DNA of 64,000 nucleotides from contig PGXL01000006.1 in assembly GCA_002839095.1 (NCBI GenBank), positions 1-64,000 of the forward strand, written 5' to 3'. Both the position numbers and the translations under genes were made by a program. Below, piece after piece: positions 27,148 to 42,375 of this stretch. The notes beneath the pieces were generated by a model. It had not been told where the DNA came from. It did not search any database and saw only the letters and a program-made list of their open reading frames with translations. Every line of letters starts with the position of its first letter. The stretch's first letter is position 1. The DNA comes from Tenericutes bacterium HGW-Tenericutes-2 (GTDB lineage: Bacteria > Bacillota_I > Bacilli_A > Acholeplasmatales > Acholeplasmataceae).

Positions 27148-27331
27148 CTGATATGATATGTATTAGTCCTTTTTTTCATGCAGAAAGGGAGATTTTCCCC
27201 TATATGCCAATTTCCAGATTTATATTTCAATCCATAATCGAGAGTTTTTATTAACTCTTAGTATTCCGTTTTATAACCATTTACACGATTACCCAACCAT
27301 TTACACGATTACCCGACGATTTACACGATAT
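27148..27331. repeat. Island intergenic element A: hairpin plus TTTACACGATT array
   Basis: Part of the 394-base gap 27081-27474. A hairpin CTGATA/TATTAG followed by CCTTTTTTT (27148-27177) is followed about 100 bases on by three direct copies of ATTTACACGAT starting at 27278, 27298 and 27318, exactly 20 bases apart. An extended -10 (TGG-TATAAT, 27380-27385) lies just downstream. The whole arrangement is homologous to the element at 34.08-34.28 kb. Confidence 0.75.
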
Positions 27332-32287: not shown

Positions 32288-32316
32288 GAGTATGAGGTTA
32301 TCTTTTGGAGGTACGT

Positions 32317-32979
32317 ATGGAAAATTTAAGTCTAATCGACAGAATCTATATGTTTATTAAAACCAACTATAAAACTAGTCAACCGTTTTTTCTCAAAGAT
32401 TTGTATGCACAATTTCCAGAGATAAACGAAGGAACGATTAGAGAGTCCATTCGAAGACTACTAAATGAAGAAAAAATACTTAAGGCTAAAAATGGGGTTT
32501 ATGAATTGCCGAATCCCGACAGAGTACTTAAATCACATGTAGTTAATGTATCGAATGTGGTCGAGCAAACATACTTGAAAGATAAAGAGAATAATATAAT
32601 CGGGTATAGAAGTGGCATTAATTTTGCTAATATGCTGGGATTAACATCACAAACAGCAAGCGTTGAGGTTGTCTACTCAAATGCGGTTTCAAACAGAAAA
32701 AGAGAGATTAAACTTAATAAGAGTAGATTGATTATCAATGCGCCAAGAGTAGAAGTCACAAATAAAAATTTCAAATTACTTCAAGTATTAGATCTTTTGA
32801 CAGAGTTTGAAAAATATAGTGAATATGATTTAATACAAGCAGAATCAAAGCTTTTGTCATACATTTCAGGGATTATGTTGTCGGTTGATGAACTGGATCG
32901 TATTGTAGAATCATATCCACTAGCTGCACAAGTGAAATTCTATAAAATTGGAGGAGCCAATGTTATTACAAAGAGATAA
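32317..32979 (+). CDS. abiEi: AbiEi-type antitoxin/transcriptional regulator
   Basis: 220 residues from ATG 32317 behind GGAGG; the in-frame TTG at 32305 is part of that site's flank. The N-terminal winged helix (DRIYMFIKTNYKTSQPFFLKDL...TIRESIRRLLNEEKI, about residues 7-60) is typical of AbiEi, followed by the C-terminal antitoxin domain. Family role: represses the operon and neutralises the AbiEii nucleotidyltransferase in a type IV toxin-antitoxin or abortive-infection system. Overlaps abiEii by 20 bases. Confidence 0.85.
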   Translation: MENLSLIDRIYMFIKTNYKTSQPFFLKDLYAQFPEINEGTIRESIRRLLNEEKILKAKNGVYELPNPDRVLKSHVVNVSNVVEQTYLKDKENNIIGYRSGINFANMLGLTSQTASVEVVYSNAVSNRKREIKLNKSRLIINAPRVEVTNKNFKLLQVLDLLTEFEKYSEYDLIQAESKLLSYISGIMLSVDELDRIVESYPLAAQVKFYKIGGANVITKR

Positions 32980-33904
32980 TGAAGTTTTTCAGGAATTAGT
33001 AATTGCAACTGCAAGTGATTTGGGTCTTGAAAACTCCCAAGTTGAAAAAGATTATTATGTATCACTTTTTCTAAAAGAATTAACGAAACTTGAATCCAAC
33101 ATCTCTATCGTGTTTAAAGGAGGAACATCACTATCAAAATGCTATTCCATCATTGATCGTTTTTCTGAAGATATCGATTTAGCAGTACAGTTCAAAAGTG
33201 CAAAAGTCACACCAAGTGAAAGAAAGCAACTGAAGAACTCAATTTTAGAAGTCATTAAAGTGCTCAATATGACTTTACTTAATGAAACAGACGTTCGTTC
33301 AGGAAGAGATCACAATGAATACCATATCGGATTTGACAATACTTTTGATGAAGATGGGGCTATGGTTCCACACATCATTGTTGAAACCATTGTTGTATAT
33401 AGACCCTATCCTTGTGTAAATCTAGATGTTAGTAATTATATAACCAAGTATTTAACTAAGGCTAGTGAAGATCAACTAATTGCGAAATATGAGCTAGAGC
33501 CATTTAAAATGTTGATTCAATCGGTTGAAAGAACTTTTATAGATAAACTTTTTGCTATTTGTGACTATCATTTAGAAGGCAAATATAACCGCTATTCAAG
33601 GCATATCTATGACATTCATATGATTTGGCAAAGTGGGAAGTCAAATATGGAGCTGGTGAAATCGATTGTTTCTGATGTCGTGAAAGATAGACAAATTTAC
33701 GGTGTTCGAAATTCATCATGTCTAGCCGGAGCAAAACCTAATGAAATTCTAAAAGAGATTATAGAACGTAATGTATACGAAAACGATTATAACGAGGTCA
33801 CATCAAAATTTATCTATAAAACGGTTGAGTACAGTGTCGCAGTAAAAAGTTTAAGGGAGATAATCGATTTAAATATAATCCCGAGTTTAGTTGGAATTTA
33901 TTAG
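32960..33904 (+). CDS. abiEii: AbiEii-type nucleotidyltransferase toxin
   Basis: 314 residues from ATG 32960 behind GGAGGAG. The nucleotidyltransferase core is intact: FKGGTSLSK (Gly54-Gly55-Thr56-Ser57) and SEDIDLAV (about residues 70-77). The C-terminal region contains KLFAICDYHLEGKYNRYSRHIYDIHMI, a conserved part of the AbiEii/DUF1814 family. Known members modify tRNA ends or otherwise halt growth. Coupled to the antitoxin gene. Confidence 0.88.
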   Translation: MLLQRDNEVFQELVIATASDLGLENSQVEKDYYVSLFLKELTKLESNISIVFKGGTSLSKCYSIIDRFSEDIDLAVQFKSAKVTPSERKQLKNSILEVIKVLNMTLLNETDVRSGRDHNEYHIGFDNTFDEDGAMVPHIIVETIVVYRPYPCVNLDVSNYITKYLTKASEDQLIAKYELEPFKMLIQSVERTFIDKLFAICDYHLEGKYNRYSRHIYDIHMIWQSGKSNMELVKSIVSDVVKDRQIYGVRNSSCLAGAKPNEILKEIIERNVYENDYNEVTSKFIYKTVEYSVAVKSLREIIDLNIIPSLVGIY

Positions 33905-34203: not shown

Positions 34204-34277
34204 GCTTACACGATTTGCTTGGTTTTTACACGATTACAAGTCAATTTACACGATTTGAATGGTATTTACACGATTTA
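34204..34277. repeat. Island intergenic element B: four TTTACACGATT repeats
   Basis: TTACACGATT begins at 34206, 34226, 34246 and 34266, exactly 20 bases apart, same orientation as array A at 27.28 kb. An extended -10 (TGC-TATAAT, 34311-34316) for the R-M operon lies just downstream. Confidence 0.8.
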
Positions 34278-34345: not shown

Positions 34346-34525
34346 ATGGAATATTCTAAAAAAATTAAATTATTAAGAGAAAAAATGTTTGTTTCTCAAA
34401 AAGAACTTGCAGAAATACTGGGTGTTTCTTTTGCTTCAGTTAATCGTTGGGAAACTGGGAAATTTGAACCAACGATAAAAACTAAAAAAAAGTTACATGA
34501 TCTTTTTACAAAATATCAAATATAG
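34346..34525 (+). CDS. XRE-family helix-turn-helix regulator
   Basis: 59 residues from ATG 34346 behind GAGG; an in-frame GTG at 34337 is within that site. It is one HTH domain: IKLLREKMFVSQKELAEILGVSFASVNRWETGKFEPT. Its position upstream of the restriction-modification genes suggests a controller (C-protein-like) role. Promoter and repeat array B lie immediately upstream. Confidence 0.85.
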   Translation: MEYSKKIKLLREKMFVSQKELAEILGVSFASVNRWETGKFEPTIKTKKKLHDLFTKYQI

Positions 34526-34555: not shown

Positions 34556-35530
34556 ATGAATCAACTATTAAAAGAAAAAGTAGATATTTTGGAAAATACC
34601 ATATATAAGATTGACAAGGAATTATTAGAAATTCTTCTACTTGATCGTACTACAAAAGAAAATATTAGATGGTGTACTAATAATTACATAAAACACGGTT
34701 TTGAATATTCCTTTTCTAAACCAATTTCCTCAAAATTGATTATTGGTAAACATGGAAACATAATTAAACCTAGATCAAAAAAAAGTAATTTAGAAAAAAA
34801 AATCAGAGTTAAAGAGAAAGCTGAAGTTTTTACTCCTTCTTGGGCGTGTAATAATCAGAATAATCAAGTTGATGATATTTGGTTTGGAAAAAAGAATGTT
34901 TTTAATATTAGTCAAAATTTAACTTGGAAAACTAATTATAACAAAATAGAGTTCACAAATAAATCATGGATTGATTATGTAAAGGACAAGCGAATTGAAG
35001 TAACATGTGGTGAAGCACCATACGTAGTGAGTAGATATGACACAGTTAGTGGAACACCAATAGAAGTTATTGATCGTATAGGAATCCTTGACAGGAAAAT
35101 TAGAATAATAAATGAGAATTCAAATGATTTGGAATGGTATGACAACGTTCTTTTGGCATATAAATCTGTATATGGCTTTGAATGGCAAGGTGATAGTTTA
35201 CTAATAGCTAGAGAAAATTTACTTTACTCATTTATAGATTATTACATAAATAGATTTGATTGTATGCCAGAAGCATTTAAATTGAAAGAAATTGCAAATA
35301 TAATATCCTGGAACTTTTTTCAAATGGATGGTTTGAAAGGTGTAATACCTGAAAGCTGCAATAATCAAAAGGTCGTACAATTAGATTTATTTGGTGAAGA
35401 AGTGACTGAGAAATGTTATGGATGTGAAAATAATTCAATACACAAACATAATGGAATCTATGTTTTCATTAAAGATTGGGATCATAATAAAATGATTAAA
35501 TTTGTAGATCTTTTAAGTGGGAGGAAATGA
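34556..35530 (+). CDS. Restriction-modification accessory subunit with 'VFTPSW' motif
   Basis: 324 residues. KEKAEVFTPSWACNNQNN (about residues 88-105) and the ITCGEAPYVVSRYDTVSG-like segment VTCGEAPYVVSRYDTVSG followed by IGILDRKIRII match proteins annotated as restriction endonuclease subunit M that accompany helicase-methylase fusions. VFTP resembles the motif X region of adenine methyltransferases, so this protein may complete the methylase of the downstream gene. Stop overlaps the next ATG (ATGA). Catalytic NPPY is not in this protein. Confidence 0.65.
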   Translation: MNQLLKEKVDILENTIYKIDKELLEILLLDRTTKENIRWCTNNYIKHGFEYSFSKPISSKLIIGKHGNIIKPRSKKSNLEKKIRVKEKAEVFTPSWACNNQNNQVDDIWFGKKNVFNISQNLTWKTNYNKIEFTNKSWIDYVKDKRIEVTCGEAPYVVSRYDTVSGTPIEVIDRIGILDRKIRIINENSNDLEWYDNVLLAYKSVYGFEWQGDSLLIARENLLYSFIDYYINRFDCMPEAFKLKEIANIISWNFFQMDGLKGVIPESCNNQKVVQLDLFGEEVTEKCYGCENNSIHKHNGIYVFIKDWDHNKMIKFVDLLSGRK

Positions 35531-38500
35531 AGATGATGAAGGGTTTTAATGAAACATTTTCGTATAAATTAATTTATGTATTTGGAATTTCAGACAAAAC
35601 ACACGAAGGTTTGTTAAAGGTTGGAGAAGCATCTATTAACCAAGTGAATGATATATCAATACTTACTGATAACTCAGTCCTTCTAAATGCGGCTGCATCT
35701 TTACGAATTAACGATTACACAAGAACTGCTGGAATAAATTATCAATTATTTTATACAACTTTAGCGATTACAAACAAAAATGTTGCATTTAGAGATAATG
35801 ATGTTCATAATGTACTAAAAAGATCTAATATAGAACAACCTAAAGAGAACTTAAATGGTGCCACAGAATGGTATCGTTGTGATCTTGAGACAGTAAAAAA
35901 AGCAATAATCGCTGTAAAAGAAGATAGAAAATCTTTATTATCGGGAGAAATTTCATCTAACAAAACACCAATCATTTTTAGACCTGAACAAAATGAGGCA
36001 ATCAAACAAACCATAAAACAATTCAGTAGTAAAGGTGTCGAAAAAGAAACTACAGGTCATATGCTTTGGAATGCAAAGATGAGGTTTGGCAAAACGCTAT
36101 CTGCATTAGAAGTTATTAGGCAAATGAATTTTAAAAAGAGTTTGATTTTAACACATCGTCCAGTGGTAAAACATAGCTGGTATGAAGATTTTGAAAAGAT
36201 ATTTTACGATCAAGAAAAATACATATATGGCAGTAAAACACAAGGTGAAACATTAATAAGTCTAAGGCATCTTAGTAAAAAAGAAAGCAAACACTTTATA
36301 TACTTTGCAAGTATTCAGGATTTAAGAGGTTCTTCTTTTGTTGGTGGTAAATTTGAAAAAAATGATTTAATATTCAACATGGGATGGGATTTTGTTATTA
36401 TAGATGAAGCCCATGAAGGAACACAAACATCACTTGGCAATCAAGTTATTCAATCATTGATAAGTAGTTCAACTAGAACGAAAACATTATATTTATCTGG
36501 TACACCCTTTAACTTATTAAGTCCATTAAGTAAACAAACATTTAAGAATGAAGAAGTGTATACTTGGGATTATGTAATGGAGCAGAGGGCAAAATTGGAA
36601 TGGGTAGAAAAACATTTTGGAGATTCTAATCCATATGAATCACTACCTAAAATGAACATTTATACATATGACTTAGCGGCTATTATTTCTAGCGATAAAT
36701 ATGAAGATATCGAGGATACCGCTTTCAACTTTAAAGAATTTTTTAGAGTATGGACAGGTGATCCATTATTTGACAAAAAAGAATTGGATGATACTGTAAA
36801 AATTGATACATTTGTTCATGAGAAAGATATTAAAAGATTTCTTGATTTATTAGTAGAATCAGGTGAACATAATTATCCATATTCTACTATTCAGTATCGT
36901 GATAATTTTAAGCATACATTATGGATGTTACCTGGTGTTAAAGAGGCTAAGGCATTATCAAATCTACTTAAAAATCATCCGATTTTTCAACATTTTACGA
37001 TTGTGAATGTTGCAGGAGATGGAGATGAGGAAGTAAAGAGTGATGATGCGTTTAAATTAGTTAAGAAAGCAATCAGTAAGAGACCAGATGAAACAAGAAC
37101 TATTACATTATCATGTGGTAGACTTACTACAGGAGTTTCAGTTCCTGAATGGACAGCTGTATTTATGTTATCCGGATCATCTTCTACATCTGCTAGTTCA
37201 TATTTGCAAACTATTTTTAGAGTACAAACCCCTGCAATTATTGCAAACAAAATGAAAACAAACTGCTACGTGTTCGATTTTGCACCTGATAGAACTTTGA
37301 AGATGATAGCAGAAGCTGGTAACCTATCTACGAAAAAAGGTTCTACAAATGATGATAAGACTAAGATGGGTGATTTCTTGAATTTTTGTCCTGTTATAGG
37401 CATAGTTGGATCTGAAATGAAACCATACAGCACTGAAAATATGCTAATTCAGTTAAAAAGAGCGTTGATTGATAGAGTTGCAAGAAATGGTTTTGATGAT
37501 AGACATTTGTATAATGATAATTTATTACAATTAACGGATTTGGAAATTTCAAAATTTCAAGATTTAAAGAAAATATTAAAATCTAGTGGAGCATCCAAAA
37601 CCAGTGACGATATTCTTGTCAATGATCAAGGCCTTGATGATGAAGTCCGAGAAGCAAAAGAGAAAAAAAATAAAAAAGAATTATCTCAAGAAGAAAAAGA
37701 AAAATTGGCTGAAAGAATGAAAAAGCTTAAAGAACGTTCTAGTGCTATTAAAATTCTAAGAGGCATTGCAATTCGTATACCATTATTAGTGTATGGAGCT
37801 GATATTGATATTAAACAAAAAATAGGCGTTGAAAATTTTACAGAGATAATTGATGATAAATCATGGATTGAATTTATGCCTAAAGGAATTACAAAAGATT
37901 TATTTAAAGAATTTGGTAAGTATTTCGATAATGAAGTATTTGTTGAAGCAGGTTTAAAAATACGTAGACAAGCAAAAGCTGCGGACGAATTACCTCCTCT
38001 AGAGAGAGTACAAGCCATTGCAGACATCTTTGCCACATTTAAAAATCCTGATAGAGAGACAGTATTAACTCCATGGCGTGCAGTAAATTTACATATGGGT
38101 GTCACAATTGGAGGGGCTAGCTTCTTTGAAGATGATTTTGAAACCCCGATTAAAATTAATGACGATAGCACAATAAGATGGATAGTTAAGAGTAATCTTA
38201 CAAATGATATATTTAACACACATAGTAATATATTAGAGATTAATTCAAAATCTGGATTATACCCATTATATGCTGCGATTAGTATTTTTCAAGACGTTAG
38301 AAATAAAGGTCAAATGAAAAATGTTGAACATCTATGGGCTGATATATTAAATAATAACATCTATGTAATTTGTAGAACAAAGATGGCTGCTGCAATTACT
38401 AGGAGAACGTTAAACGGATTTAAAGATATAAAAGATTTCAAAACTAGAGTGATAGTAATGGATGACTTAGTTAATCAAATGTCATCGCAATATAATAGTA

Positions 38501-39600
38501 ATTATGCAAATTTAGTGAAACATATAAAAAGTAAAAAAACATGGCACATAGGAAGTGATATTGTGAAATTCGATGCTGTTATAGGAAATCCTCCATACCA
38601 AAGTGATGCAAAACAACAAATTTATACTGATTTTTATTTGTTGGCAAGAGAGATTGGTGAAGTGGTTTCTTTAATTTTTCCAGTAGGGTGGCAAGAGCCA
38701 AAGAATGCTAATAATCTATCTAAACTAAATAATGAAAAAATTAAACGTGATCCACAAATAATGTTTATAGATAATAGACAAAATGTGTTCCCAGGAATCT
38801 CAGGCGCTGAGTGGACAAACTTTGTATTATGGAAAAAAGGTTATGACAATCAACTTGGAGGAAAGCAAATGATTTATACAAATGGGGAAGATGAAGATGA
38901 AGTTTTCTTGCCAATAAATAAAGAAGATATCGAGAAGCCAAAGGAACTTGTTACATTGGTTGAGTTAGTCACGAATCACGCTTCATTCCGTTCTATACAA
39001 GACATTACATCATCACGTAAACCATATGGCTTAGGTACTGATGTAATGGACGATCCAAGTAAATATGGGTTACCTAATATCCAGGAACAAAAATTGAAAG
39101 ATGATGATATAAAAATATATGGGCTTTACAAAAGAAGACAATCAATATTCTATATAAAAAGTGACTATCCACTGCCAAGAAGAACTAAAGCAATTGATAA
39201 GTATAAAGTATTCGTCCCTTACGCGTGGGGGAACATGGATGTAAAAGCGGGGTTTGGTGGTGCGTTTTCTGACATAATTTTAGGTAAGCCATTTGAAGTA
39301 TCAACAGAGAGTTTTCAAGAACAAGGTTCATATGATGATGAACGTCAAGCATTATATCATGCGAAATATATATTAACTAGATTTGCAAGAGCTTGTTTAT
39401 ACATAAATAAATATTCACAACATAGCACAACTGCATGGGGATCTGTTCCTATCCAAGATTATAATGAAGATTGGTGGAATGAATCTATAGAAGATTTAGA
39501 GAATAGACTGTTTGATAAATATAATATTCCACAGAACATAAGAGATTTTGTTCTAAACAATATCCAACAAAAGACTGAAGGAAATATACTAAATATATAA
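35527..39600 (+). CDS. GIY-YIG-like nuclease / SF2 helicase / N6-adenine methyltransferase fusion (R-M enzyme)
   Basis: 1357 residues. (1) N-terminus about 12-135, T5orf172/GIY-YIG-like: LIYVFGI...GLLKVGEAS. (2) SF2 helicase/translocase about 150-620: Walker A-like MRFGKT (185-190), DEAH (293-296), LSGTPFNL, and SYLQTIFRVQTP (motif VI, Arg565). (3) Charged helical linker about 690-740. (4) Methyltransferase: probable motif I LEINSKSGLYPLYAA (about 903-917), motif IV NPPY (1021-1024). The C-terminus probably recognises target. The order nuclease-translocase-methylase recalls single-chain type I-like (ISP) enzymes, which have an Mrr-type nuclease instead. ATG 35533 is an alternative start with better ribosome spacing. 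Confidence 0.75.
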   Translation: MKMMKGFNETFSYKLIYVFGISDKTHEGLLKVGEASINQVNDISILTDNSVLLNAAASLRINDYTRTAGINYQLFYTTLAITNKNVAFRDNDVHNVLKRSNIEQPKENLNGATEWYRCDLETVKKAIIAVKEDRKSLLSGEISSNKTPIIFRPEQNEAIKQTIKQFSSKGVEKETTGHMLWNAKMRFGKTLSALEVIRQMNFKKSLILTHRPVVKHSWYEDFEKIFYDQEKYIYGSKTQGETLISLRHLSKKESKHFIYFASIQDLRGSSFVGGKFEKNDLIFNMGWDFVIIDEAHEGTQTSLGNQVIQSLISSSTRTKTLYLSGTPFNLLSPLSKQTFKNEEVYTWDYVMEQRAKLEWVEKHFGDSNPYESLPKMNIYTYDLAAIISSDKYEDIEDTAFNFKEFFRVWTGDPLFDKKELDDTVKIDTFVHEKDIKRFLDLLVESGEHNYPYSTIQYRDNFKHTLWMLPGVKEAKALSNLLKNHPIFQHFTIVNVAGDGDEEVKSDDAFKLVKKAISKRPDETRTITLSCGRLTTGVSVPEWTAVFMLSGSSSTSASSYLQTIFRVQTPAIIANKMKTNCYVFDFAPDRTLKMIAEAGNLSTKKGSTNDDKTKMGDFLNFCPVIGIVGSEMKPYSTENMLIQLKRALIDRVARNGFDDRHLYNDNLLQLTDLEISKFQDLKKILKSSGASKTSDDILVNDQGLDDEVREAKEKKNKKELSQEEKEKLAERMKKLKERSSAIKILRGIAIRIPLLVYGADIDIKQKIGVENFTEIIDDKSWIEFMPKGITKDLFKEFGKYFDNEVFVEAGLKIRRQAKAADELPPLERVQAIADIFATFKNPDRETVLTPWRAVNLHMGVTIGGASFFEDDFETPIKINDDSTIRWIVKSNLTNDIFNTHSNILEINSKSGLYPLYAAISIFQDVRNKGQMKNVEHLWADILNNNIYVICRTKMAAAITRRTLNGFKDIKDFKTRVIVMDDLVNQMSSQYNSNYANLVKHIKSKKTWHIGSDIVKFDAVIGNPPYQSDAKQQIYTDFYLLAREIGEVVSLIFPVGWQEPKNANNLSKLNNEKIKRDPQIMFIDNRQNVFPGISGAEWTNFVLWKKGYDNQLGGKQMIYTNGEDEDEVFLPINKEDIEKPKELVTLVELVTNHASFRSIQDITSSRKPYGLGTDVMDDPSKYGLPNIQEQKLKDDDIKIYGLYKRRQSIFYIKSDYPLPRRTKAIDKYKVFVPYAWGNMDVKAGFGGAFSDIILGKPFEVSTESFQEQGSYDDERQALYHAKYILTRFARACLYINKYSQHSTTAWGSVPIQDYNEDWWNESIEDLENRLFDKYNIPQNIRDFVLNNIQQKTEGNILNI

Positions 39601-39609
39601 TAAAAAGTC

Positions 39610-39651
39610 AAAGCGACCCAGCTCATAATTGAGTTGAGTCGCTTTTTTTTT
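39610..39651. terminator. Terminator between convergent R-M and ABC-3C operons
   Basis: Stem AAAGCGAC/GTCGCTTT stacked on CAGCTCA/TGAGTTG with TAAT loop, then nine T on the + strand; the minus strand has a weaker T-rich tail. Confidence 0.88.
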
Positions 39652-39652
39652 A

Positions 39653-41284
39653 TTAAGATTGTTTTTTCTTATTCCAAGATTTACCAAAAAGTTCGTTTCC
39701 ATTTGGAGATAAATAGATGACTTGATTAGACTTCAATATAGATTGTGCACTATCACTATAAGATTCAATTTTGTCTAATGAAATAAATACTTGTTTGTTA
39801 ATTGTATTATATAATTTAAGTATTTCTTGGACGGCTTGATCTTCCACATTCTTATATAGAAACGAGTCATGAATTATTGCCGGAAGAGGAGTTTTATCGA
39901 GTATTACAAGATCAAAAATCAACATACCTCTATATTTTGCACCGGTTCCTGCATCGTTGATAACCTCAAATAAATAATCGTTATTATCATAAAATGTTAT
40001 CTGGGGAGGAGTTTTTTCACCATTATAAATTTTGTCATTTAGTGTATCCATATGTTTGTTTAGTAATGATGACAATTCTAAAGTTATGTTTTTTCTAACA
40101 TCAAATAAATCTTTCTTTTTTTCATCCAGAATTTTTTTAAATTCAATAGATTGATCATATTGATTATTTTCATTTTTCATTCTATTGATAGCTGTTGAAA
40201 TAGTAGAAATTCTTTGTACTAGACTTTTAGGTACATCTTGATTATAACCAGTAGCTTCCATCAATTTTTCCAAGACTAACATGTTTTCAGTAATATTGTC
40301 AATTTTTATTTGGATCTTTTCTTTTGATTCTTCAAATTCGTTGATGAGAATTTGATATATTTGAGTATGGAAATTATTAATATCCTCGAATCGTTTTACG
40401 TTAACATTTTCAAAAAAATCTGACAAAACTTCATAATTGTTTTGATTTTCAGAGTTTTCAATTTTCCTACTAACCACTTCAAACTCATTAAACAAACTTG
40501 AACGAGCTCTCTTGAGTTTAGAGTGTTCAATCTTTAACTTAATGAATTCATCTGTTTGATCAAGAGAAGTTGCAATCATGTCATCTTTTGCATACTGAAT
40601 CTGCTCTAATTCAAGTTTTAAGTTCTTTATTTCGGTTATATTTTTAATGTAAGTTGATTTATTTATGCTTGGTATAAGAGTATATTTTTGTGCTTTATTA
40701 TGTGCTGATTTTTTGTCGCTAGCATAATCCACATCCCTTTGATAAGCATCAATAGGCTCATACTTGTTAAATAATTGAATAAGAGAATTAACAGGTAATC
40801 CAGTCTTTTCTTTTGGAAAGACATGTAATGGTCGTTGTTCGTTTGAGTTATCACGTCCATAAACTCTAAAATACCTTGACACGATGTTTCTAAAAGATAT
40901 GTAGGGTAATCCAATATTGTACTTTTCAAACAAAAGTTCTCTGTATTTATCAATGCCAATTTCATCTATTGGAACATAATTTTCATTACAAATTAACACC
41001 TTTTTGTAATCTTCTGTATTTCTTGAAAAATAACACTTTTCACTATTAAATTGAAACATATAATTTATAGAATGATGTCCAACGTTAGCAATAATATAGT
41101 TCGTTTTCTCAACATAGTCATCCCCACCAAAAACAAAATCAACTATCATTAAGAAAGTAGATTTACCTATTGAATTAACTGCATGATCTGCTCCTAATAC
41201 AACATTTAGATTCTCATTAAAAACTATCTTGTCTCTAATTTTATCATTAGATATAAACTTATCACTCCATAGTTCTTTCAACAT
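39653..41284 (-). CDS. ABC-3C system ATPase (DUF2326, SMC/RecN-like)
   Basis: 543 residues from ATG 41284 behind AGGAGG (an in-frame GTG at 41305 is less likely). The Walker A is stretched, G31...NSIGKST43, as in DUF2326 proteins. Long coiled-coil helices follow (about 205-395) and the DUF2326 C-terminal domain has GMLIFDLVIL, AIIHDSFLYKNVE and VFISLDKIES, with Walker B/D-loop-like positions. The family is the ATPase of ABC three-component conflict systems, thought to sense invading DNA. Overlaps the middle component gene by 23 bases. Confidence 0.82.
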   Translation of the reverse strand: MLKELWSDKFISNDKIRDKIVFNENLNVVLGADHAVNSIGKSTFLMIVDFVFGGDDYVEKTNYIIANVGHHSINYMFQFNSEKCYFSRNTEDYKKVLICNENYVPIDEIGIDKYRELLFEKYNIGLPYISFRNIVSRYFRVYGRDNSNEQRPLHVFPKEKTGLPVNSLIQLFNKYEPIDAYQRDVDYASDKKSAHNKAQKYTLIPSINKSTYIKNITEIKNLKLELEQIQYAKDDMIATSLDQTDEFIKLKIEHSKLKRARSSLFNEFEVVSRKIENSENQNNYEVLSDFFENVNVKRFEDINNFHTQIYQILINEFEESKEKIQIKIDNITENMLVLEKLMEATGYNQDVPKSLVQRISTISTAINRMKNENNQYDQSIEFKKILDEKKKDLFDVRKNITLELSSLLNKHMDTLNDKIYNGEKTPPQITFYDNNDYLFEVINDAGTGAKYRGMLIFDLVILDKTPLPAIIHDSFLYKNVEDQAVQEILKLYNTINKQVFISLDKIESYSDSAQSILKSNQVIYLSPNGNELFGKSWNKKKQS

Positions 41285-41504
41285 AATGTAAACCTCCTGA
41301 AACACTATTCAACTCAATCTTATTTAGAGAATACAAACAGCATAAAATTTCTACAAATTCTGCAATGTTTTCTAGCTTTTCAGAAACTTCTTTATAAAGT
41401 TCTAAAACTGACATGTCTCTATTGTTAATTTTGGATAGAACTATTGGAAATTTTGATATAATGCTATCTTCATATTTTATGATTTTATTCGGTAATTTCA
41501 TCAT
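41262..41504 (-). CDS. ABC-3C middle component (MC6-like)
   Basis: 80 residues from ATG 41504, three codons below a GTG and next to GAGG. LPNKIIKYEDSIISKFPIVL followed by LYKEV and FVEILCCLYSLNKIEL fits the short winged-helix-like middle component (type 6) of ABC-3C systems. It overlaps both neighbours, so the three proteins are made in a coupled way and probably form a complex. Confidence 0.75.
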   Translation of the reverse strand: MMKLPNKIIKYEDSIISKFPIVLSKINNRDMSVLELYKEVSEKLENIAEFVEILCCLYSLNKIELNSVSGGLHYVERTME

Positions 41505-42375
41505 AGACCTCACAATCCTGTATAAAGAATGCTACTATTTTTTCGCAAGTATTACGATTTGCACCACTTTTTGTTGCTATCATGTCAGTTAAGTTATCGT
41601 GAATTTGATCTTGAGATTGACCAACTTTTTTTAAACTCTCATAATTTTTTCTAATATGTTTTGCTACTTTATTGAAATTTGCATCATGTTTAGCTTCAAG
41701 TTCTTTGAAATAGTCACGTATGACGAAGTAGTAAATAACATTGAATTCAACTTTATCTATGAGCTCATGATTATCCTCTTCAATTTTTTTTCTAAAGGAA
41801 GTAGGATTCATATTGAGTTCATTTTTTTTAATTTCTTTGCGTTTCTCATTCGATAGTTTATCTAGCACGGTTTTCAATTCGGATTCAATATCATCCCTGT
41901 ATAATTGTGTTTTCCAACCTCTATCCTCAGTTTTATTTTCGGCTTGTAATGCATGTATAAAAATATTGGTGACTCTATCTGCGGTTGGAATGCTAGAATC
42001 TAGAAATCCATTTTTCTTAACATCTGTAATCGTTGAGTCTTCATTAATGAGTTTATGCAACTTTTCATAAAAATCCTGTTCTTTTCCAACATCGAAGCTA
42101 TCAAATATGTCGTTCTCAAATGTATCCTTTATAACATTTAAGACTTTTTGCTTATTTAATGCAGATTTAATTGGATTATATATATCTCTTTTTCTAGTCA
42201 TCCATTTAGATGTAATATCGGTATCAATTATTAAAGGTTCACCAGTTTTGCTTACTAAATTCTCGCAGTCAATAATTGGCTGCAACAATTTGATTGTCAA
42301 ATTTGTATTACTAATTGGGCCTTCAAGGCATGGCCTTAAAGTATTCAAAAAAGTCGAAAAGCATAGTGTCTCCAT
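41485..42375 (-). CDS. ABC-3C system effector/CTD protein
   Basis: 296 residues behind AAGGAAGTG. Charged, helical; no enzyme motif that I can name. The N-terminal part (residues 1-130) differs from the helical C-terminal half, which ends in IATKSGANRNTCEKIVAFFIQDC and could be the ABC-3C C-terminal domain linking effector to middle component. First gene of the operon; the effector role is inferred from gene position in this system type. Confidence 0.6.
   Translation of the reverse strand: METLCFSTFLNTLRPCLEGPISNTNLTIKLLQPIIDCENLVSKTGEPLIIDTDITSKWMTRKRDIYNPIKSALNKQKVLNVIKDTFENDIFDSFDVGKEQDFYEKLHKLINEDSTITDVKKNGFLDSSIPTADRVTNIFIHALQAENKTEDRGWKTQLYRDDIESELKTVLDKLSNEKRKEIKKNELNMNPTSFRKKIEEDNHELIDKVEFNVIYYFVIRDYFKELEAKHDANFNKVAKHIRKNYESLKKVGQSQDQIHDNLTDMIATKSGANRNTCEKIVAFFIQDCEVYDEITE

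Follow-up and report, generated by a model that had tools for sequence, protein, structure and literature searches.

Organization of the locus and its surroundings

The window analyzed here, a stretch of 64,000 nucleotides from contig PGXL01000006.1 of Tenericutes bacterium HGW-Tenericutes-2, contains an operon that encodes, in this order, an XRE-type HTH regulator of 59 aa (34346..34525; HTH_3, E 1e-10), which the initial annotation had already placed at the head of the operon, a small subunit of 324 aa denoted S (34556..35530), which ends before methyltransferase motif IV, and a large chain of 1357 aa (35527..39600) with five consecutive regions denoted NUC, HEL, LINK, INT, and CAT. A terminator-like hairpin (39619..39636) is located 3' of the operon; this hairpin and all other features of the operon are on the plus strand. 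The S and large chain ORFs are both intact in the window and overlap by 4 bp. As read from the sequence, these are real, intact genes, with the XRE regulator followed by S and then by the large chain.

The operon is located between an AbiEi/AbiEii pair and an ABC-three-component (ABC-3C) system and adjoins prophage genes. The AbiEi/AbiEii type IV toxin-antitoxin pair (32305-33904) is immediately 5' of the operon. The ABC-3C system (39653-42375, minus strand), which consists of a DUF2326 protein, an MC7 middle component, and a CTD11 protein, is convergent with it. The prophage-like genes (42763-63560) encode a sigma-like regulator, exonuclease, helicase, terminase, portal, and major capsid protein.

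Upstream of the operon, four direct repeats TTACACGATT are arranged with an exact 20-bp spacing (34206..34275, plus strand). This repeat is present in 6 exact copies in the window, compared to 0.14 expected, and its direct repeats were found in three other places in the same genome. Arrays of TTTACACGATT, also with an exact 20-bp spacing, are located 5' of accessory genes at positions 27280-27330 and 34205-34275 of the window, and further arrays are located in G000 near position 133148 of C3 and near position 102522 of C42. A similar terminator-like segment precedes both arrays in the window, and GGGGTGCTAAAATT units, related to TTTACACGATT, are found near the arrays. The arrays could be regulator sites, perhaps shared, or else a mobile-element remnant or the ends of an IS-like element.

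Nuclease, motor, and linker of the large chain

The N-terminal region, NUC (residues 1-145; 35527..35961), is a T5orf172/GIY-YIG-type nuclease. Residues 60-128 of the window chain match T5orf172 with 15.9 bits, below the Pfam cut-off of 20, but the N-terminal domains of six relatives pass this cut-off (23-29 bits), so that the domain call is valid for the family. Tyr17, Lys31, Gly33, Arg60, Phe88, Asp90, and Glu114 are invariant among 24 aligned sequences. The GIY-YIG pattern is represented by Tyr17, Lys31-x-Gly33, Arg60, Asp90, and Glu114, with two deviations, in that Lys replaces Tyr and Asp replaces Glu; Asp90 seems to occupy the position of the metal-ligand Glu of GIY-YIG nucleases. NUC is followed by HEL (35962..37446), an SF2 motor with a Walker A motif (RFGKT, residues 186-190), a DEAH motif (residues 293-296), and a ResIII match (residues 151-328, E 4e-15). 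LINK (residues 641-790; 37447..37896) is a linker conserved among relatives with the same domain order (type A, see below) and is possibly a coupler. Several chains encoded on plasmids of Staphylococcus, Enterococcus, Lactococcus, and Levilactobacillus (L038-L041 and L029) contain an additional 140-180 aa ahead of the nuclease.

The C-terminal region, CAT (residues 1013-1357; 38563..39597), encompasses methyltransferase motifs IV-VIII and the target recognition domain. Its motif IV, NPPY (residues 1021-1024; 38587..38598), falls within an Eco57I methylase match (residues 943-1087, E 5e-13). The initial annotation had described a T5orf172/GIY-YIG rather than Mrr nuclease, a DEAH motor, and an NPPY methylase, and all three assignments are borne out by these findings. 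It had also considered the enzyme single-chain, which does not hold: of the methylase halves, the one with the SAM-binding residues retained is encoded separately, as S.

The small protein S and its counterpart S6

S matches the PADLOC "Type II methyltransferase" profile over nearly its full length (E 1.6e-108), and no Pfam family scored above the cut-off. No relative was detected in the PDB by sequence searches that used S, the large chain, and profiles of NUC, S, and INT-CAT as queries. The alignment of S relatives revealed four conserved blocks, namely, EVFTP, E-I-T-C-G-E-A-P-Y, Y-G-x-E-x-Q-G-D, and W-N-x-x-Q-M-D-G. In the window protein, these blocks correspond to motif X (EVFTPSW, residues 90-96; 34823..34843), with T and P present in 32 of 32 sequences; motif I (IEVTCGEAPY, residues 147-156; 34994..35023), with E, C, G, and E each present in 32 of 32; motif II (YGFE, residues 206-209; 35171..35182), in which the acid is kept (E or D in 31 of 32); and the motif III region (WNFFQMDG, residues 252-259; 35309..35332), with D in 31 of 32. 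Thus, VFTPSW (residues 91-96), previously likened to motif X, is indeed this motif and is followed by motifs I-III. The blocks follow the motif X, I, II, III order of gamma N6-adenine methyltransferases and stop before NPPY, and S appears to be the SAM-binding N-terminal half of a split enzyme of this class. The simpler view of S as a methylase deprived of its catalytic half was rejected, given that S is kept everywhere and that several loci encode it as a fusion with CAT.

The partner in Lactobacillales, Staphylococcus, Lysinibacillus, and others is not S but a different small protein labeled "N-6 DNA methylase," which we denoted S6. It contains the textbook motif I FLEPAAGEGAFLV and likewise stops before NPPY. 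Comparison with hhalign across motifs X to III yielded a probability of 99.3% for S and S6 and 97.2% for S6 and INT, whereas the direct match between S and INT is limited to 22 columns (68%). The homology of S and INT, accordingly, is established through S6 as a bridge.

INT, a degenerate internal half

Between LINK and CAT, the large chain contains a second, degenerate N-terminal half, INT (residues 791-1012; 37897..38562), which was absent from the initial annotation. Its motifs, 5' of NPPY, are motif X VLTPWRAV, motif I ILEINSKSGLYPL, and motif II IYVICRT. At EINSKSG in motif I (residues 904-910; 38236..38256), Lys908 replaces the first Gly, and this Lys is shared by all 57 aligned INTs; the acid of motif II, the position of which is occupied by Cys949 (38371..38373), is missing in all 57 as well. 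In most of the loci with the type C gene order (see below), the motif I change takes the clean form FLDPxxK[ST]G, and the chains of 1796-1928 aa encoded by jumbo phages have an INT with the same K-x-G.

AlphaFold modeling of window residues 791-1357 (INT-CAT; pLDDT 74) produced strands in the methyltransferase order, with CamA as the best match (Z-score = 14.7, rmsd 7.5, 401 aligned, model residues 39-544) and a further match to LlaBIII (Z-score = 13.3). INT together with CAT thus has the methyltransferase fold and lacks the SAM-site residues, that is, the motif I Gly and the motif II acid. Taken together, the motifs and the model indicate that INT is apparently a pseudo-N-half, with the fold kept and the SAM-binding residues lost. 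Because the lysine is invariant, which is not the pattern of random decay, the alignment suggests that INT has a positive function.

CAT as an exchangeable catalytic half

When S is placed ahead of CAT, motifs X, I, II, III, and NPPY come in linear order within a Rossmann-like fold, and the same order is found in natural S-CAT fusions. The AlphaFold model of one such fusion (L079), the recognition part of which is of low confidence, matches MmeI (Z-score = 16.4, rmsd 3.9, 258 aligned) and also CamA and LlaGI (Z-score = 14.8), across both halves. Hence, in the models, S-CAT and INT-CAT each give a full methyltransferase fold. The suggestion in the initial annotation that the small protein is needed for methylation is accordingly retained as likely, given that S has the motif X-III half and that the S-CAT fusion is modeled as a methyltransferase.

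CAT is exchanged between loci. Two plasmids, from Pediococcus and Loigolactobacillus, have 4199 bp in common from S through INT with 98.8% DNA identity (L030:6937-11135 and L036:781-4979) and encode unrelated CATs, with the divergence starting about 14 bp past the codons of NPPY, which thus marks the exchange junction. The Loigolactobacillus CAT is 53% identical to that of the window, and the segment before it showed no significant match to the window INT. A different arrangement was observed in contig L068, which contains two spare CAT genes that start near NPPY, one of them inverted. In this locus (L068:8217-15210), the large chain is followed by a stand-alone CAT, the inverted CAT, and a tyrosine recombinase-like gene, and a 33-bp inverted repeat (97%) is located at the NPPY start; the arrangement looks like a recombinase-driven specificity switch. 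From the plasmid exchange and the spare CATs, it follows that specificity travels with CAT, whereas S and INT remain constant. The earlier proposal that the small protein could choose the target is contradicted by the plasmid pair, in which S and NUC-HEL-INT are 97-99% identical and the CAT half with the recognition domain is entirely different. The CAT half, then, is a natural plug-in specificity cassette.

Gene orders, distribution, and phage-encoded versions

Three gene orders were identified. In type A, found in the window and most relatives, S is followed by the NUC-HEL-LINK-INT-CAT chain. In type B, S and CAT are fused or adjacent and accompanied by NUC-HEL-LINK-INT. In type C, S or S6, INT-CAT, and NUC-HEL are separate proteins. 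Natural S-CAT fusions are present in L033, L054, L058, L059, L076, L077, and L079; where such a fusion is accompanied by a motor protein, the C-terminus of the latter is INT. Each of S, INT, and CAT is retained in all restriction loci.

The family is represented in Bacilli, code-4 Mollicutes-like bacteria, Spirochaetes, Bifidobacterium, clinical and dairy plasmids, and phages. The large chain was detected in 23 of the 392 sampled genomes, in 22 of which S or S6 is encoded beside it; in the 23rd genome (G268), the contig ends at the large chain, and an S-CAT piece is located at the end of another contig. S or S6 likewise accompanies the large chain in the plasmid loci inspected. Across the sampled genomes and many plasmids, the co-location of S and large-chain relatives is far beyond chance. 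In a code-4 locus (L064:2049-7010), both S and the large chain are cut in two by an inversion, the breakpoints of which fall within S and HEL. The only inverted match near these breakpoints is 13 bp long, and the inversion could be either an on/off switch or an assembly error.

Two phages, the only examples of S and CAT without a working INT, encode reduced versions. FNU4 has an S-CAT fusion only, without INT or motor. In PTm1, S is intact, the CAT gene starts at NPPY, INT before CAT is frameshifted, and there is no motor; this INT remnant refutes the notion that the phage pairs never had INT. The jumbo phage contigs L140-L142 encode chains with NUC, HEL, INT, and NPPY, with S elsewhere in the phage, and represent a phage-borne version of the split-methylase system. 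Several smaller viral contigs (L028, L080, L086, L088, L089, L091, and L092) encode S alone, and CAT was not found in the records of stand-alone-S contigs such as L028, L080, and L086-L092. The stand-alone viral S might serve as a decoy or an anti-restriction protein, or it might pair with a CAT of the host.

Proposed mechanism and alternatives

Sequence comparison firmly supports the intact operon, its domain make-up, the homology of S, S6, and INT, the loss of the INT residues, the constant pairing, and the exchange of CAT. We consider it probable that the operon encodes an ATP-dependent restriction-modification system with an adenine methyltransferase split in trans between S and CAT, in which INT is a pseudo-half that ties CAT to the motor. 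S would supply SAM to CAT in trans, and the two together would methylate the sites of the host, with CAT responsible for both catalysis and target recognition. Most likely, INT would take over the docking site of S on CAT and couple the recognition of targets to both the SF2 motor and the GIY-YIG nuclease, such that unmodified DNA would be translocated on and then cut. S-CAT is favored as the active half-pair because S keeps the motif I and II residues that INT lost. More tentatively, S and INT might compete for one CAT, with S-CAT being the methylating form and INT-CAT the non-methylating, motor-engaged, restricting form, so that the exchange of halves would be the switch between marking and cutting.

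A different assignment of the active pair is conceivable given that the window and the type C loci encode INT and CAT as parts of a single polypeptide and that the AlphaFold model of this segment is a continuous methyltransferase plus recognition domain similar to CamA: INT-CAT could perform the methylation in cis, in the manner of type ISP enzymes, with S being only a stabilizing or regulating accessory. We regard this as improbable, considering that all 57 INTs have the motif I Lys and lack the motif II acid, that CAT in the type B loci is fused or adjacent to S with INT on another protein, and that PTm1 and FNU4 keep S and CAT without a working INT. Both N-terminal halves might also be functional, with S-CAT methylating one strand and INT-CAT of another copy of the chain reading or methylating the other strand, in analogy with the division of labor in the dimeric Mod of EcoP15I (PMC4490356) and the paired M subunits of PacII (PMC9613975). 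The joint presence of S, INT, and CAT in all restriction loci, along with the invariant INT lysine, which implies a positive role rather than random decay, fits this scenario, but INT lacks the SAM-contacting residues and nothing indicates more than one CAT per complex; we view it as rather unlikely.

As a separate small gene beside a methylase, S resembles HsdS, but it carries the motifs of a methyltransferase N-terminal half and is 97% identical in the two plasmids in which the recognition-bearing CAT is replaced, so S can hardly be a specificity or target-choice subunit. Nor does the locus look like a decayed, inactive restriction-modification relic. Its location in an accessory island beside the AbiE and ABC-3C genes and the degenerate motif of INT would fit a relic, but both reading frames run uninterrupted through 5 kb, NUC, HEL, S, and CAT have intact motifs, and the degeneration of INT is common to the whole family rather than a local decay, making this explanation very unlikely.

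Comparison with known systems

MmeI, DrdV, BsaXI (type IIL/IIB/IIG-like), and CamA have a gamma-type N6A methyltransferase core and a recognition domain in common with the present system. In these enzymes, the methyltransferase is unsplit, there is no motor, and the nuclease is different or missing.

The type ISP plan combines a nuclease, motor, coupler, methyltransferase, and recognition domain in one chain, with an Mrr nuclease (PMC4666363). LlaGI and LlaBIII resemble the system described here in having a nuclease, SF2 motor, linker, N6A methyltransferase, and recognition domain in the same order. They differ in the nuclease, Mrr as opposed to GIY-YIG/T5orf172, and in that here a second protein is always present, the methyltransferase is split, and there is an extra degenerate half. 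Thus, an SF2 ATPase is located between the nuclease and the methyltransferase as in type ISP, but the present system falls outside this type because the nuclease is not Mrr and the functions are spread over more than one chain rather than contained in a single polypeptide. It may still work like a type ISP enzyme.

Methyltransferases built from two polypeptides have precedents in M.AquI and M.EcoHK31I (PMC3404938). Unlike the presumably adenine-specific system considered here, these are C5-cytosine enzymes divided at another point, such that the small subunit carries motif IX or IX-X, and they have neither a restriction motor nor a pseudo-half. The GIY-YIG catalytic pattern is shared with R.Hpy188I and R.Eco29kI, and R.Hpy188I has Lys in place of the YIG Tyr, as does NUC (PMC2630997). 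However, both are stand-alone site-specific nucleases, whereas NUC is part of a motor protein and seems to have Asp in place of the metal-binding Glu.

A search of openly accessible journal papers found no description of the two-part system and no biochemistry for the split-methylase family. The split-methylase arrangement is widespread, and its proteins are already in databases. It has long been asked how combined restriction-modification enzymes choose whether to methylate or to cut a site. In the present system, these alternatives are perhaps encoded in two separate, homologous half-domains, one with and one without SAM-binding residues, which would make the choice directly accessible to point mutation. 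In RefSeq, the proteins of the family are labeled "restriction endonuclease subunit M" and "Eco57I restriction-modification methylase domain-containing protein," and in PADLOC, "MTase_II"; the labels refer to the same proteins but do not describe the split, the pseudo-half, or the pairing. The family also suggests that genes labeled "restriction endonuclease subunit M" but lacking NPPY encode halves of enzymes rather than broken methylases.
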